NCBI RefSeq assembly: GCF_002161555.1
Contig: NZ_NFHZ01000008.1
Coordinates: 62,001-126,000, forward strand
Direction: 5' to 3'
Origin: Barnesiella sp. An55
GTDB lineage: Bacteria > Bacteroidota > Bacteroidia > Bacteroidales > Barnesiellaceae
Length of the DNA stretch: 64,000 nt
Under the pieces are notes generated by a model. It was given only the letters and a program-made list of their open reading frames with translations. It made no database searches and was not told where the DNA came from. Position 1 is the stretch's first letter. The number at the start of each line of letters is the position of its first letter. The position numbers were made by a program, and so were the translations under genes. Below, piece after piece: positions 17,794-22,065 of the stretch.

Positions 17794-18567
17794 TCACTCG
17801 ATATTCTTTCGCACCTGGGTGAGGTACTTTTTCATGCGGTCGGTGTCTTTGCGCTCGACGATATCGAGCAGGGCCGAGAGTTGTTCCTGTATCTGTCGCA
17901 CCTGTTGCGGGGTGTTGGGGTTGAAGAGTATCTCGGTGAGCAGGTAGTCATCCTCCGAGAGCAGGCCACGGGCAATCTCCATGTGCTTCTTGAAGGTAGT
18001 TCCCGGGGCATCCTGGTGCTTCATGATCGAGGCGAATACCAGGGTCGAGGTAAAGGGTATCGACAGGGAGTAGGCGATGGTCTCGTCGTGCTCGCGGAAC
18101 GAGTATTCAAATATGTTGAGCCGCAGCCGCTGGTAGATGTCCTTGAAAAAGACTTTACCCAGGTGGTCACCCTCGGTGATGATGATGACGTGCTGTGTGC
18201 TCAGGTCGCTCAGGTTGGCGAAGGTGGGGCCGAACATGGGGTGAGTAGAGACGAAGGGATGGCCTGCCCGGGCGTAGAACTCGGGCAACCCGGTTTTTAC
18301 CGAGGCGATGTCCGACAAGATGGTGCGGGCCGGCAGGTAGGGCAGCACCGACTCGAAGGCCTCGATGGTGTATTTGACCGTGGCGGCGTTGATGACCAGG
18401 TCGGGGGCAAACTCGCCTATCTCTTCGGGGCGGGTCATGCGCAGGGTGTTGAAGGCATAGCGAAGCCGACGGGGATCGACGTCGTAGAGGGCGACTTCGT
18501 GGTCGAAACTGAGTACGTCGGCAAAGAACGAGCCCATCTTGCCGGCTCCGAGAATGACTATTTTCAT
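17794..18567 (-). CDS. tyrA: Prephenate dehydrogenase TyrA
   Basis: This 257-residue enzyme oxidatively decarboxylates prephenate to 4-hydroxyphenylpyruvate, the tyrosine branch. It opens with the NAD(P)-binding motif VILGAGKMGSFFADVL, has SDIASVKTGLPEF, and the catalytic-histidine stretch FVSTHPMFGPTF. It is short and lacks both a chorismate mutase domain and an ACT domain, so enzyme-level feedback by tyrosine is not evident. That makes transcriptional control by the operon leader more relevant. It is the last gene of the operon, 26 nt after the DAHP synthase fusion. Confidence 0.93.
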   Translation of the reverse strand: MKIVILGAGKMGSFFADVLSFDHEVALYDVDPRRLRYAFNTLRMTRPEEIGEFAPDLVINAATVKYTIEAFESVLPYLPARTILSDIASVKTGLPEFYARAGHPFVSTHPMFGPTFANLSDLSTQHVIIITEGDHLGKVFFKDIYQRLRLNIFEYSFREHDETIAYSLSIPFTSTLVFASIMKHQDAPGTTFKKHMEIARGLLSEDDYLLTEILFNPNTPQQVRQIQEQLSALLDIVERKDTDRMKKYLTQVRKNIE

Positions 18568-18593: not shown

Positions 18594-19658
18594 TTATTTG
18601 TTGAGAATCTCCATTTGTTGGTGTACCGACTCTTCGTGGATGGCCTGCATCACCTCTTTCATAAATTCGGCACCCATGCCCAGCTCTACGGCTTGAGCCA
18701 TGCGCTTTTGCAGAATTTCGTCGTAGCGGCTGGTCTGCAACACGGGCATGCTGTGCTCCTTTTTGTATTGGCCTATCTCGCGCGATACCCGCATGCGCTT
18801 GGCCAGCAGCTCGAGCAGTTGGTTGTCGAGCTGGTCGATTTGGCTTCGCAGTTCCGAGAGGTTCTCGGTCGTCTGGGTGGTCTCGCGGATGACCAGCATG
18901 TGGAGGATGTAGTTCAAGGCGTCGGGGGTCACTTGCTGGTTCTTGTCGCTCCAGGCACAGTCGGGGTCGCAGTGCGACTCGACGATGAGGCCGTCGAATC
19001 CCAGGTCCATGGCCTGTTGGCAGAGCGGAGCCACCAGTTCGCGCTTACCCCCTATGTGGCTGGGGTCGCAGAAGATGGGCAGGTTGGGCAGGCGCCGACG
19101 CAACTCGATGGGGATGTGCCACTGGGGCATGTTGCGGTAGAGGTGCTTGTCGTAGCTGCTGAAGCCGCGATGGATGACTGCCAGCCGGTGCAGACCCGCA
19201 TTGTAAATGCGCTCGACGGCACCGATCCACAGCTCCAGGTCGGGATTTACGGGGTTTTTGATCAAGACGGGGATATCGACCCCCTTCAGGGCGTTGGCAA
19301 TCTCTTGTACGGCAAAGGGATTGGCCGTGGTGCGGGCCCCGATCCACAGGATGTCGATGCCGTGTTTGAGGGCTTCGAACACGTGGCGCTCGGTGGCCAC
19401 CTCGGTGGCGGTGTACATGCCGGTCTCCTCTTTGACCCGCTTGAGCCAGGCCAGGCCCTCCACGCCCACGCCTTCGAAACCTCCCGGTTTGGTGCGGGGT
19501 TTCCATATCCCGGCGCGGAATATCTTGATACCTTGTGCAGCCAGTTGCCGGGCCGTGTTCATAACTTGTTCTTCGGTCTCGGCACTACAGGGACCGGCTA
19601 TGATGATGGGGCGTTTGCTATCGACCCCGGGGAGTACAATGGGTTGTAAATCGTTCAT
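18594..19658 (-). CDS. Bifunctional DAHP synthase / chorismate mutase (type II AroQ)
   Basis: This 354-residue fusion has an N-terminal DAHP synthase of the KDO8P-synthase-like (type I beta) class (about 1-265), with IIAGPCSAETEEQ, FRAGIWKPRTKPGGFEG, IHRGFSSYDK and FCDPSHIGGKR. A chorismate mutase of the AroQ type follows (about 268-345), with ELRSQIDQLDNQLLELLAKR. It therefore catalyses the first shikimate step and the branch step to prephenate. The order synthase-then-mutase is the one known from Porphyromonas gingivalis and is opposite to that of Bacillus subtilis. The mutase domain probably gives allosteric feedback by prephenate, as described for such fusions. Confidence 0.95.
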   Translation of the reverse strand: MNDLQPIVLPGVDSKRPIIIAGPCSAETEEQVMNTARQLAAQGIKIFRAGIWKPRTKPGGFEGVGVEGLAWLKRVKEETGMYTATEVATERHVFEALKHGIDILWIGARTTANPFAVQEIANALKGVDIPVLIKNPVNPDLELWIGAVERIYNAGLHRLAVIHRGFSSYDKHLYRNMPQWHIPIELRRRLPNLPIFCDPSHIGGKRELVAPLCQQAMDLGFDGLIVESHCDPDCAWSDKNQQVTPDALNYILHMLVIRETTQTTENLSELRSQIDQLDNQLLELLAKRMRVSREIGQYKKEHSMPVLQTSRYDEILQKRMAQAVELGMGAEFMKEVMQAIHEESVHQQMEILNK

Positions 19659-19671
19659 GATGAGAGTGTAT

Positions 19672-20856
19672 TTAAGATTTCATATTTTGGATTCGTTGCA
19701 GGGCTTCGCTCATTCGTTCGTCGGGTGCGCAGAGCGAGATGCGCAGATAGCGGTTGCCTTGGCTCCCGAAGATGAAGCCTGGGGTGATGAAGACGCGGGC
19801 TTCGTGGAGTACCCGGTCGGCCATCGACTCGGCATCGCGGGCTTCGTCGGGGATACGACCCCACAGGAAGAGCCCCACTTGTGAGGGATCGTACCGGCAC
19901 CCGAGCGATTGCATGATCTGCTCGGCAATTGCTCGCCGGGAGCGATATACCCGGTTCACCTCGGCATACCACTCGGGGCCGCACGAGAGAGCCTTTATTG
20001 CCGCGCTTTGCAGGGGGCGGAACATGCCCGAGTCGATGTTGCTCTTCACCCGCAGTATCCATTCGACAAACCGGGGGTTGGAGGCCAGCATCCCGATGCG
20101 CCAGCCCGCCATGTTGTGCGACTTGCTCAGCGAGTTCATCTCGATGCAGCACTCGCGCGCACCGGGAATCGACAGCAGGCTGAGGGGTTGGTCGTTGAGG
20201 ATAAAGCTGTAGGGGTTGTCGTTGACGATGACGATGCCGTGGCGCCGGCCAAACTCGACCAGACGGGTAAACAGCTCTACCGAGGCGTTGGTGCCGGTGG
20301 GCATGTGGGGGTAGTTGACCCACATGAGTTTGATGCGGTCGAGCGGCAGCGACTCGAGCTGGTCGAAGTCGGGTTGCCACCCGTGGCTCTCGTCGAGGTC
20401 GTAGGTGAATATCTCGGCCTCGGCCAGCCGGCTCACCGAGGTGTAGGTGGGATAGCCGGGGTTGGGAACCAGCACACCGTCGCCGGCGTTGAGAAAGGCG
20501 AGGCTGATGTGCAGGATACCCTCCTTCGAGCCGATGAGCGGCTGTATCTCACGCTGCGGGTCGAGGACGACACCATACCAGCGGGCATACCAGTCGGCAA
20601 AGGCCTGGCGCAGCTCGGGTATTCCTACATAGGGTTGATAGCTGTGGGTGTCGGGGCGTCGGCTCTCGGAGCAAAGCGCTTCGATGGTGTCGGCGTGAGG
20701 CGGCCGGTCGGGCCCGCCTATGCCCAGACTGATGATGTCGAGCCCCTGGGCGTTGAGGTCGGCAATCTCTCTCAACTTGCGCGAGAAGTAGTATTCGCTC
20801 ACGCTGTTCACCCGGTTGGCGGGCTGTATGTCAAAGGGGACGGTTGAATTCTGCAT
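19672..20856 (-). CDS. Pyridoxal-phosphate aminotransferase, probably aromatic/aspartate type
   Basis: This 394-residue fold-type I class I/II aminotransferase has the cofactor lysine in SLSKSHNMAGWRIGM, plus ISLGIGGPDRPPH, VPNPGYPTY and VNYPHMPTGT. The position between pheA and the DAHP synthase/chorismate mutase gene suggests it transaminates phenylpyruvate and 4-hydroxyphenylpyruvate to Phe and Tyr. Its start overlaps the end of pheA by 26 nt. The family also contains LL-diaminopimelate aminotransferases, with which it would score in searches; the operon argues for an aromatic role. Confidence 0.85.
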   Translation of the reverse strand: MQNSTVPFDIQPANRVNSVSEYYFSRKLREIADLNAQGLDIISLGIGGPDRPPHADTIEALCSESRRPDTHSYQPYVGIPELRQAFADWYARWYGVVLDPQREIQPLIGSKEGILHISLAFLNAGDGVLVPNPGYPTYTSVSRLAEAEIFTYDLDESHGWQPDFDQLESLPLDRIKLMWVNYPHMPTGTNASVELFTRLVEFGRRHGIVIVNDNPYSFILNDQPLSLLSIPGARECCIEMNSLSKSHNMAGWRIGMLASNPRFVEWILRVKSNIDSGMFRPLQSAAIKALSCGPEWYAEVNRVYRSRRAIAEQIMQSLGCRYDPSQVGLFLWGRIPDEARDAESMADRVLHEARVFITPGFIFGSQGNRYLRISLCAPDERMSEALQRIQNMKS

Positions 20857-21676
20857 ATTCTCCGAGTATTTTGAAGTTTTTGGTCAGGGGGCGTATAGCC
20901 TCGAGCGATTGTTTGTAACGGGTGAAATTGTCGAAGGTAAGGTCGATGTAGAAGCGATACTCCCATTCTCGCCCGATGATAGGCATGGATTGTATTTTCG
21001 ACAGGTTGATGTCATAGAAGGAGAGAATGGTGAGCACCTTCGACAGACTGCCTTGCGTGTGGGGCAGGCTGAAGACGAGCGATGCCTTGTTGATGCGTTT
21101 GCCAGCGGTGAGTAGCTCGCTGTAGAGCGGATTGGCCACAACCAGAAATCGGGTGAAGTTGCGCTTGTTGGTCTCGATACCCTCGGCCAGGATGTTCAGC
21201 CCGTAAATCTCGGCTGCCAGTCGGCCGCAGATGGCAGCGTGCCCCTTGAGTTGTTGCTGGGCTATCTCGTAGGCACTGCCTGCCGTATCGTCCTTCTCGA
21301 CGAGTTTCATGCGGGGGTGAGCCTTGAGGTACTCGCCGCACTGCATCAGGGCCATGGGGTGGGAGTTCACCTCGCGTATGTCGTCGAGAGTTTCGCCCGG
21401 CAGGGCAGCCAGCACATGTGAGATGCGCAACTTGTACTCCCCGATGATATTCAGCTCGCTCTTGCGCAACAGTTCGTGGTTTTGCAGCAGGCTGCCGGCA
21501 ATGGTATTCTCGATGGCGATGATGCCCAGCAGGGAGCGGTCGTCGGCCATGCGCTCAAACATCTCGGGGAAGGTGGCGCAGGCTACGGGTTCAATCTCCT
21601 CCTCGCCGAAGTAGGCACGGGCGGCAGCTTCGTGGTAACAGCCTGCTATACCTTGTATGGTCACTCTTTTCTTCAT
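20831..21676 (-). CDS. pheA: Prephenate dehydratase PheA
   Basis: This 281-residue enzyme turns prephenate into phenylpyruvate. The catalytic domain (about 5-185) opens with IQGIAGCYHEAAARAYFG and contains IIAIENTIAGSLLQNHELL and the NFTRFLVVA stretch with the conserved Thr-Arg-Phe. A C-terminal ACT domain (about 198-275, LPHTQGSLSKVLTILSFYDINL) should bind phenylalanine for feedback inhibition. There is no chorismate mutase domain; that activity is in the fusion two genes downstream. It is the first structural gene after the leader and attenuator. Confidence 0.95.
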   Translation of the reverse strand: MKKRVTIQGIAGCYHEAAARAYFGEEEIEPVACATFPEMFERMADDRSLLGIIAIENTIAGSLLQNHELLRKSELNIIGEYKLRISHVLAALPGETLDDIREVNSHPMALMQCGEYLKAHPRMKLVEKDDTAGSAYEIAQQQLKGHAAICGRLAAEIYGLNILAEGIETNKRNFTRFLVVANPLYSELLTAGKRINKASLVFSLPHTQGSLSKVLTILSFYDINLSKIQSMPIIGREWEYRFYIDLTFDNFTRYKQSLEAIRPLTKNFKILGEYAEFNRPL

Positions 21677-21683
21677 AAGTCGA

Positions 21684-21720
21684 AAATAAAAAATCCCGTT
21701 CGTGTGATGAACGGGATTTT
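21684..21720 (-). terminator. Attenuator hairpin in front of pheA
   Basis: A perfect 12-bp stem pairs 21690-21701 with 21709-21720 around a 7-nt loop. In the minus-strand transcript it ends in GAACGGGATTTTTTATTTT, so the T tract overlaps the 3' arm and continues to about 21683. The hairpin lies between the leader peptide stop and the pheA start, with about 8 nt left before the ATG. An intrinsic terminator in this position makes sense only if it is conditional. Confidence 0.9.
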
Positions 21721-21776
21721 ATTGTACATATATCGTTATTCTGTTTTACAAGTTCTTAGTTGCATAAAACCCCGTT
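21709..21776 (-). promoter_or_regulatory. Antiterminator pairing of the aromatic operon leader
   Basis: In the minus-strand RNA, AACGGGGTTTTAT (21776 to 21764, codons Asn-Gly-Val-Leu and one base of the leader peptide) can pair over 13 bp with ATAAAATCCCGTT (21722 to 21710), 12 Watson-Crick pairs and one G-U. The second element is the upstream arm of the attenuator hairpin, so the two structures exclude each other. The first element begins 12 nt after the last Phe codon of the Tyr/Phe run. A ribosome held on that run would leave it free, while one at the stop codon (21756-21758) would cover it. Confidence 0.85.
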
Positions 21777-21836
21777 TTTATTTTGGTGAAAATAAAAATA
21801 AAAGTAAAAGTAATATGCAAAATCAAAGTTTCTCAT
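21756..21836 (-). CDS. Phe/Tyr-rich leader peptide of the aromatic operon
   Basis: A 26-codon frame begins MRNFDFAYYFYFYFYF and ends shortly after in NGVLCN and TAA. Six codons are Phe and five are Tyr, and nine in a row (21815 to 21789) are Tyr or Phe. It starts about 28 nt downstream of a promoter box and is followed by mutually exclusive antiterminator and terminator structures in front of pheA. It is read as a regulatory peptide whose translation speed reports charged tRNA-Phe and tRNA-Tyr levels, like pheL of enterobacteria but sensing both amino acids. No Shine-Dalgarno is visible, as expected in this phylum. Confidence 0.9.
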   Translation of the reverse strand: MRNFDFAYYFYFYFYFHQNKNGVLCN

Positions 21837-21863
21837 CGTGTCTCAATTGTGAGTTTGATGTTG

Positions 21864-21894
21864 CAAATGTAATGAAATCATTTTTGAATCCAAA
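21864..21894 (-). promoter_or_regulatory. Promoter of the leader-pheA operon
   Basis: On the minus strand TTTG (21894 to 21891), a 19-nt spacer and TACATTTG (21871 to 21864) match the Bacteroidetes consensus exactly. Transcription would begin near 21857, giving a 5' end about 20 nt ahead of the leader peptide start. Confidence 0.85.
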
Positions 21895-22065
21895 CAAATC
21901 GTTATGAATTTTTGAATAAAACGATATATTTTTTATTCTTTTTGCGTAAGAGCCGGCATCGCGACATTGCAAAAGAGGTTCGGACAGAGCCGAGGATATG
22001 GTGGCGTAGAGAGGGCTCCGACAAAAAACTCCCCACAATTTGGACTTTTTGTCCTCGACTTTTCG

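Follow-up and report, generated by a model that had tools for sequence, protein, structure and literature searches.

A candidate Phe- and Tyr-sensing transcription attenuator ahead of the pheA operon of Barnesiella, with counterparts across Bacteroidia

Ahead of the pheA operon of Barnesiella sp. An55 lies a leader that, judged from its own sequence and from that of its relatives, very probably (we would put this at about 0.93) acts as a ribosome-mediated transcription attenuator sensing charged tRNA-Phe and tRNA-Tyr. The leader region covers positions 21684-21898 (- strand) of the window, by which we mean the whole stretch of 64,000 nucleotides that was analysed, and comprises a promoter, a 26-codon ORF and a terminator 13 nt before pheA (Table 1). 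The parts of the attenuator, their co-variation, their spacing and the match between codons and operon content can be seen in the sequences compared here.

In the proposed mechanism, RNA polymerase would begin near 21857, the start predicted from the position of the promoter, and the first ribosome would trail it on the leader ORF. When both Phe and Tyr are ample, the ribosome would pass the nine aromatic codons and mask arm 2, so that arms 3 and 4 could form the terminator and transcription would stop before pheA. Under a shortage of Phe or of Tyr, it would stall on the run and mask arm 1 while arm 2 stays free; arm 2 would then pair with arm 3 ahead of the synthesis of arm 4, no terminator would form, and the unit of pheA, aminotransferase, DAHP synthase/chorismate mutase and tyrA would be transcribed by antitermination. 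We infer translation of the leader, stalling, the efficiency of termination and the sufficiency of a shortage of either amino acid alone.

Beyond the single locus, it is likely that we are dealing with an ancestral attenuator of aromatic amino acid genes found throughout Bacteroidia, a class whose members are common in the gut and in the environment. Its sensor codons may have been re-tuned to the enzymes under control (Phe and Tyr where the operon is joint, Phe where pheA stands alone, Tyr/Phe where a DAHP-synthase unit is detached), and tandem duplication may sharpen the response in some lineages.

Table 1. Features of the pheA leader and operon in the window, and leaders of detached DAHP-synthase units in other genomes
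Feature	Position or genome	Strand	Basis or sequence
Bacteroidota-type promoter	21864..21898	-	TTTG 21891-21894, 19-nt spacer, TACATTTG 21864-21871
Leader ORF, 26 codons + TAA, MRNFDFAYYFYFYFYFHQNKNGVLCN	21756..21836	-	sequence; kept in relatives
Sensor, nine consecutive Tyr/Phe codons (codons 8-16), YYFYFYFYF	21789..21815	-	sequence; codon content tracks operon content
Arm 1, overlaps sensor codons; protector hairpin with 21760-21784	21795..21820	-	minimum-energy fold
Arm 2, antiterminator arm, AACGGGGTTTT	21766..21776	-	11 bp with arm 3; dG -14.0, 0/200 shuffles as good
Arm 3, terminator 5' arm, common to antiterminator and terminator	21709..21720	-	terminator scan, co-variation, masking calculation
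Arm 4, terminator 3' arm, into T tract 21683-21693	21690..21701	-	terminator scan, co-variation
pheA, prephenate dehydratase, first structural gene	20831..21676	-	NCBIfam PRK11899/PRK11898, E 1.9e-57/1.2e-56, under curated cut-offs
LL-DAP aminotransferase-like family aminotransferase	19672..20856	-	NCBIfam, under curated cut-offs; substrate inferred
DAHP synthase-chorismate mutase fusion	18594..19658	-	PRK12595, E 8.8e-59, under cut-off; chorismate mutase domain matches
tyrA-like prephenate dehydrogenase	17794..18567	-	E 5.2e-18, under cut-off
Detached DAHP-synthase leader	G032		MIKNISVFAYFYYYFYFSKK
Detached DAHP-synthase leader	G134		MKNLMSTFAYFYYYFYFNIK
Detached DAHP-synthase leader	G106		MATQLFVYSYYFYFSWTS
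Detached DAHP-synthase leaders	G097		MMTTYTFSYFYYWFRTP and MVNFEFYYGFYYYLD
Detached DAHP-synthase leader	G022		MNNTFGYYAFYYYFFYNN
Detached DAHP-synthase leader	G265, G230		MLITAAIYFTFFYFYF...

Leader frame, promoter and pairings in the window

The first-pass annotation of this DNA had described a 26-codon frame with 6 Phe and 5 Tyr codons, nine of its aromatic codons being consecutive, and this can be read directly from the sequence. In the window, 3 of 284 stretches of 450 nt contain an ORF that reaches 6 or more F/Y in 9 codons; the pheA leader has 9 of 9 and the two others 6 of 9. As controls, this density was reached in 24 of 1657 stretches downstream of the relatives' pheA, most of that sequence being coding. 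When upstream regions were shuffled by mononucleotide, 17 of 1940 shuffles reached it. Chance or composition as the origin of the Phe/Tyr leader is ruled out by the downstream and shuffle controls, and the earlier observation of such a leader is real and far beyond chance.

A consensus promoter had also been noted. There is indeed a promoter at this place, and its TTTG and TACATTTG with a 19-nt spacer fit what we take to be the Bacteroides promoter consensus; it is not of the sigma-70 kind, a scan for sigma-70 promoters having found 0. An extra copy of TTTG lies at 21895-21898 of the same strand. Of 77 leaders tested, 58 have TAnnTTTG no more than 100 nt ahead of their ATG, at a median distance of 30 nt from it; the corresponding count for shuffles is 260 of 3850.

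The perfect 12-bp hairpin with a U tract that had been seen before pheA was borne out: 21690-21720 forms 12 uninterrupted pairs around a 7-nt loop and runs into a T tract. Such a hairpin alone is not unusual, since a scan of 1.2 kb gave 1 terminator-like site where shuffles lead one to expect 1.2. The leader RNA as a whole has a more stable fold than its shuffles, with a z of -3.73 and 2 of 200 shuffles as good, and in this minimum-energy fold the Phe/Tyr codons pair with the antiterminator-arm stretch (the protector). Neither the protector pairing nor the antiterminator arm figured in the first-pass annotation, and a working switch needs the latter. This arm, AACGGGGTTTT, sits within the end of the leader ORF, and its partner AAAATCCCGTT is the 5' arm of the terminator. 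The sequence predicts three pairings that exclude one another (1:2, 2:3 and 3:4), like those of classical attenuators.

The next gene after the tyrA-like one is dxs, the assignment of which exceeds its NCBI cut-off. PheA is 88-93% identical in the six nearest of the best 80 titled loci, five of which are named Barnesiella. The sole chorismate-binding (PF00425) gene found genome-wide lies at 1669-2775 of the window, seemingly in a menaquinone cluster as far as its neighbours can be judged by eye; in that case trpE would be absent from the genome, and the organism may depend on tryptophan from outside.

Distribution of the leader and content of the transcription unit

The leader is widespread in the class. 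In the database set, which consisted of titled loci with pheA (the best 80 of at least 551), 68 of the 80 have a leader (a run of at least 4 F/Y) ahead of pheA, and four of the 12 misses have less than 120 nt upstream (L043, L052, L070, L083). For the order, an even draw of 148 genomes gave a PheA match in 68 and none in 80; our genome and one congener, both positive, were set aside, 66 were examined, and G117 was dropped for its little upstream sequence. The pheA matches of three loci (L095, L112, L113) hold one in-frame stop codon each, possibly reflecting broken genes or assembly errors. At a threshold of at least 6 F/Y in 9 codons, the leader was found in 56 of these 65 genomes. Nine fell below it (G134, G091, G106, G097, G014, G139, G050, G073, G150), of which G014 is a contig-edge artefact and G097 borderline. 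By the same threshold, a leader is present in 20 of 24 genomes from elsewhere in the class, the four below being G265, G230, G166 and G249. For the rest of the phylum, the count was 2 of 47 examined (2/7 + 0/40, one of the latter, G250, with only 308 bases fetched) among 77 with a PheA match. The leader is present in G168 (L157/L211) and G220 (L174/L225) though both genomes are listed outside the class. Their PheA proteins share 47% and 43% identity with the query, near the top of the range for the out-of-class group, and the operon was perhaps transferred together with its leader.

The aromatic codons follow the genes that stand behind them. A lone pheA (no adjacent pathway gene found) with a leader occurs in four genomes of four families. 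Three of the runs are devoid of Tyr, namely FFFFFAFFF (G032), FFTHFFFFF (G022) and NNSFFFFFF (G042); the fourth, in G097, is the weaker MYFDFVFGF with one Tyr (MYFDFVFGFLFCFPKS), under the density threshold and included by hand. The 75 leaders of multi-gene pathway units have a mean of 3.2 Tyr and 4.4 Phe in the 9-codon run. Tyr-less runs are found for 3 of 4 lone pheA genes versus 0 of 75 with other pathway genes (Fisher p 5e-5, from a table of 3,1 vs 0,75 that treats genomes as independent of phylogeny). Both states exist within family f15, in which G022 has a lone pheA without Tyr in its run and G126 an operon with four Tyr.

As Phe/Tyr content follows unit content, detached DAHP-synthase units were predicted to bear a Tyr-containing leader of their own. 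A Tyr/Phe leader with a terminator was found at such units in 7 of 10 genomes, from five families (Table 1); four of these genomes (G134, G106, G265, G230) are without a leader at pheA itself. Among the remaining three, no clear leader was seen at the detached units of G166 and G249, and the unit of G042 lies at a contig end and is hence unscorable. Second copies of DAHP synthase in G097 and G265 have no such leader directly ahead. In G022, the ORF that follows the DAHP-synthase leader starts MNIAIVGLGLIGGSMAM and was read by eye as tyrA-like; no match to the tyrA of the window was obtained in that genome. Genomes with split operons offer a ready natural experiment on codon-specific sensing.

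These data bear on a Phe-only attenuator, in which the Tyr codons would come from a constraint on codons or structure (a U/A-rich arm 1) and only Phe starvation would matter. The known pheA leader peptides of enterobacteria are Phe-rich, and arm 1, lying within the codons, has an A-rich arm as its necessary partner. Yet lone pheA genes have Phe runs while all 75 of the 75 leaders of multi-gene units hold Tyr, the contrast recurs inside family f15, and the leaders of detached DAHP-synthase units contain Tyr. We consider a Phe-only sensor very unlikely, and sensing of both amino acids remains the preferred reading.

A Trp codon occurs in 27 of 79 leaders (22 beside Phe/Tyr; 29 Trp in 1050 non-F/Y residues), and a role in Trp sensing was therefore considered as well. 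Such codons may add Trp sensing in units that include DAHP synthase.

Co-variation of the arms, spacing and ribosome masking

Pairing was tested with one leader from each of 80 genomes. The scan located a terminator after 75 of these leaders and none after five (G029, the lone-pheA leader of G032, G069, G133, G109); the lone-pheA leader of G097 was outside the terminator scan. When arms 2 and 3 were swapped between families, the own pairing was better by a mean of -4.90 kcal/mol (p 3e-13) and in the best 10% for 49 of 75 leaders. For arms 1 and 2, the same swaps gave -6.32 kcal/mol (p 1e-12) and 51 of 75. When the arm-2 stretch was shuffled by dinucleotide, with plain shuffles as a fall-back, z was below -2 for 63/75 leaders (2:3) and 50/75 (1:2). 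Composition as the cause of the pairings is ruled out by the between-family swaps together with these shuffles.

Pair changes were counted in an alignment of 52 close sequences that was not structure-guided. The 3:4 terminator has two-sided changes at 7 of 11 pairs, with 93.6% of cells paired. For the 2:3 antiterminator, 5 of 10 pairs have two-sided changes, a number reached by 3 of 500 shuffles; its further pair types were not above shuffles (87/500). In the 1:2 protector, 87.0% of cells are paired and 42 cells changed on both sides versus 22.5 in shuffles; these both-side-changed cells and the covariation score were above shuffles (0/500 each), and the 7 of 21 two-sided pairs and the pair types were not (73/500 and 127/500). 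The antiterminator is exclusive with the terminator and conserved by co-variation, as in the attenuator class.

Arm 2, located by a search across the whole leader that did not presuppose its position, starts at a median of 10 nt past the last aromatic codon, and at +3 to +17 from it in 71 of 73 leaders versus 108 of 730 shuffled ones. At loci where this offset is 0 to 25, the position of arm 2 has a standard deviation of 2.8 nt when counted from the last aromatic codon, whereas counting from arm 3, the stop or the ATG gives 9.4, 10.9 and 11.6 nt. The median offset is close to the reach of a stalled E. coli ribosome downstream of its A site. Within one genus, two positions of the stop codon were observed: before arm 2 (...FGPK*, 19 codons; L010, L013-L015), and after it (...NKNGVLCN*, 26 codons) in the window, L011 and L012. 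The distance from arm 2 to the last Phe codon is unchanged despite the moved stop. In leaders with the short ORF, such as L010, arm 2 would be only part-covered by a ribosome at termination.

The conserved frame and hairpins, the co-varying pairings and the way in which Phe and Tyr codons follow the content of the transcription unit support the attenuator reading of the first-pass annotation. Very little room is left for a partial terminator of fixed level combined with an ORF for a small aromatic peptide in its own right and devoid of sensing. Terminator-like hairpins are not rare, and close relatives share a similar peptide pattern; across families, though, the peptide keeps its aromatic content and not its sequence while the arms co-vary, and arm 2 holds its place relative to the last aromatic codon.

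For the preferred attenuator, the effect of ribosome position was calculated on the window sequence with an E. coli-like footprint. With the A site on any of the 11 aromatic codons, arm 2 is free and 2:3 forms before arm 4; of the codons from 19 onwards, those tested were 19, 21, 23, 25, 26 and the stop, and with the ribosome at any of these 2:3 cannot form. On this geometry and with the E. coli footprint, arm 2 is left free by a stall and covered by passage, as in attenuators. In the finished full-length RNA, the terminator is always favoured by free energy, so that antitermination would rest on folding during transcription. In RNA up to arm 3 without a ribosome, 2:3 is the optimum although the 1:2 pairing is conserved; for untranslated leaders not to read through, the protector would therefore have to prevail kinetically. 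Taken together, the two calculations imply that the outcome must be decided during transcription.

Relation to known systems, tandem copies and further leaders

Known leaders of other kinds were compared with this one. No Rfam family reached its gathering score in the window (sub-threshold scores were PyrG_leader 29.1 of 65, Thr_leader 26.6 of 55 and Phe_leader 21.1 of 55), and codon content shifts with operon content, which makes a riboswitch, a T-box or a protein-bound leader sensing the amino acid or tRNA directly, with an incidental ORF, hardly credible even if the leader is structured and stands ahead of an amino acid operon. The enterobacterial pheA leader (RF01859 Phe_leader) has the same anatomy as the proposed attenuator, with an ORF rich in the regulated amino acid, exclusive pairings and an intrinsic terminator. 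It differs in its sequence, is no match here (21.1 bits against a gathering score of 55), and senses Phe only, where Phe and Tyr would be sensed here; moreover, the unit here also has DAHP synthase and tyrA. Sensing of more than one amino acid by one leader peptide is known from the thr and ilv leaders of E. coli, which resemble our leader in this respect and differ in the amino acids and organisms. The Bacteroid-trp motif is associated with trp genes. Like our leader, it is a candidate cis-regulatory RNA of Bacteroidetes (RF01692; PMC2864571), and the window has no match to it, including in the sub-threshold Rfam scan.

The first-pass annotation was aware of no example in Bacteroidales. For the phylum, strong clues for leader-peptide attenuation ahead of amino acid operons have already been reported in the transcriptome of Flavobacterium psychrophilum, with structured 5' elements at pheA and hisG that are shared with other genera of Flavobacteriaceae (PMC9723704). 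These elements are alike in phylum and in their place upstream of pheA; unlike the present analysis, the section that describes them gives no pheA codon content, antiterminator, link to operon content or reach beyond Flavobacteriaceae (PMC9723704). In B. thetaiotaomicron, a transcript map describes leader-like short ORFs in long 5' UTRs, and pheA is unnamed in the part concerned (PMC7366714). Among the literature matches listed, there was no Phe/Tyr leader in Bacteroidia except for the Flavobacterium hint, and neither a Bacteroidia-wide reach nor a codon-to-operon match was described. Comparative surveys of attenuators may include Bacteroidetes, and priority is therefore not claimed. The mechanism is classical; the dual sensing matched to operon content, the class-wide reach and the tandem copies seem new.

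To our knowledge, there is little work on the control of aromatic amino acids in Bacteroidia, a class with many abundant gut bacteria, for which the proposed attenuator would give a mechanism. Ribosome-mediated attenuation works only if the ribosome closely follows RNA polymerase, and translation in Bacteroidia is believed to begin, for the most part, without Shine-Dalgarno sites. The universality of transcription-translation coupling in bacteria is debated (PMC7858274). A class-wide attenuator, if true, would imply close coupling in Bacteroidia, and a conserved leader with arm 2 at a near-fixed distance from the last sensor codon makes the question directly testable there.

Two aromatic leaders ahead of pheA were flagged in 14 of 90 genomes. 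Each leader was re-checked for a terminator and for an arm 2 that lies at +4 to +17 and has an energy of -7.9 kcal/mol or lower, and both were sound in eight genomes (G062, G088, G019, G125, G104, G092, G028, G226). G154 passes on energy and has its first arm 2 at +1; one leader fails or is unscorable in G153, G069, G071 and G191; and the first ORF of G183 was judged spurious. The read-throughs of tandem leaders would be expected to multiply. Salmonella mgtCBR likewise has a leader with two ORFs and their attenuators, which respond to two different signals, ATP and proline (PMC3641672), whereas the tandem pheA leaders present the same Phe/Tyr codons twice.

Other leaders were noticed by eye in the genome of Barnesiella sp. 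An55. Upstream of hisG (L298:1336-1395), a His-rich leader ORF, MLFLSLHHHYLHILCGGIG, is followed by a terminator-like hairpin and a T tract, and is probably a his attenuator. Upstream of ilvD (L300:1225-1287), the Ile/Leu/Val-rich leader MILHVISLSVIISELIVVSR, with arms GGTGGAAAGG, CCTTTCCACC and GGCGGAAAGG, is a probable branched-chain attenuator.
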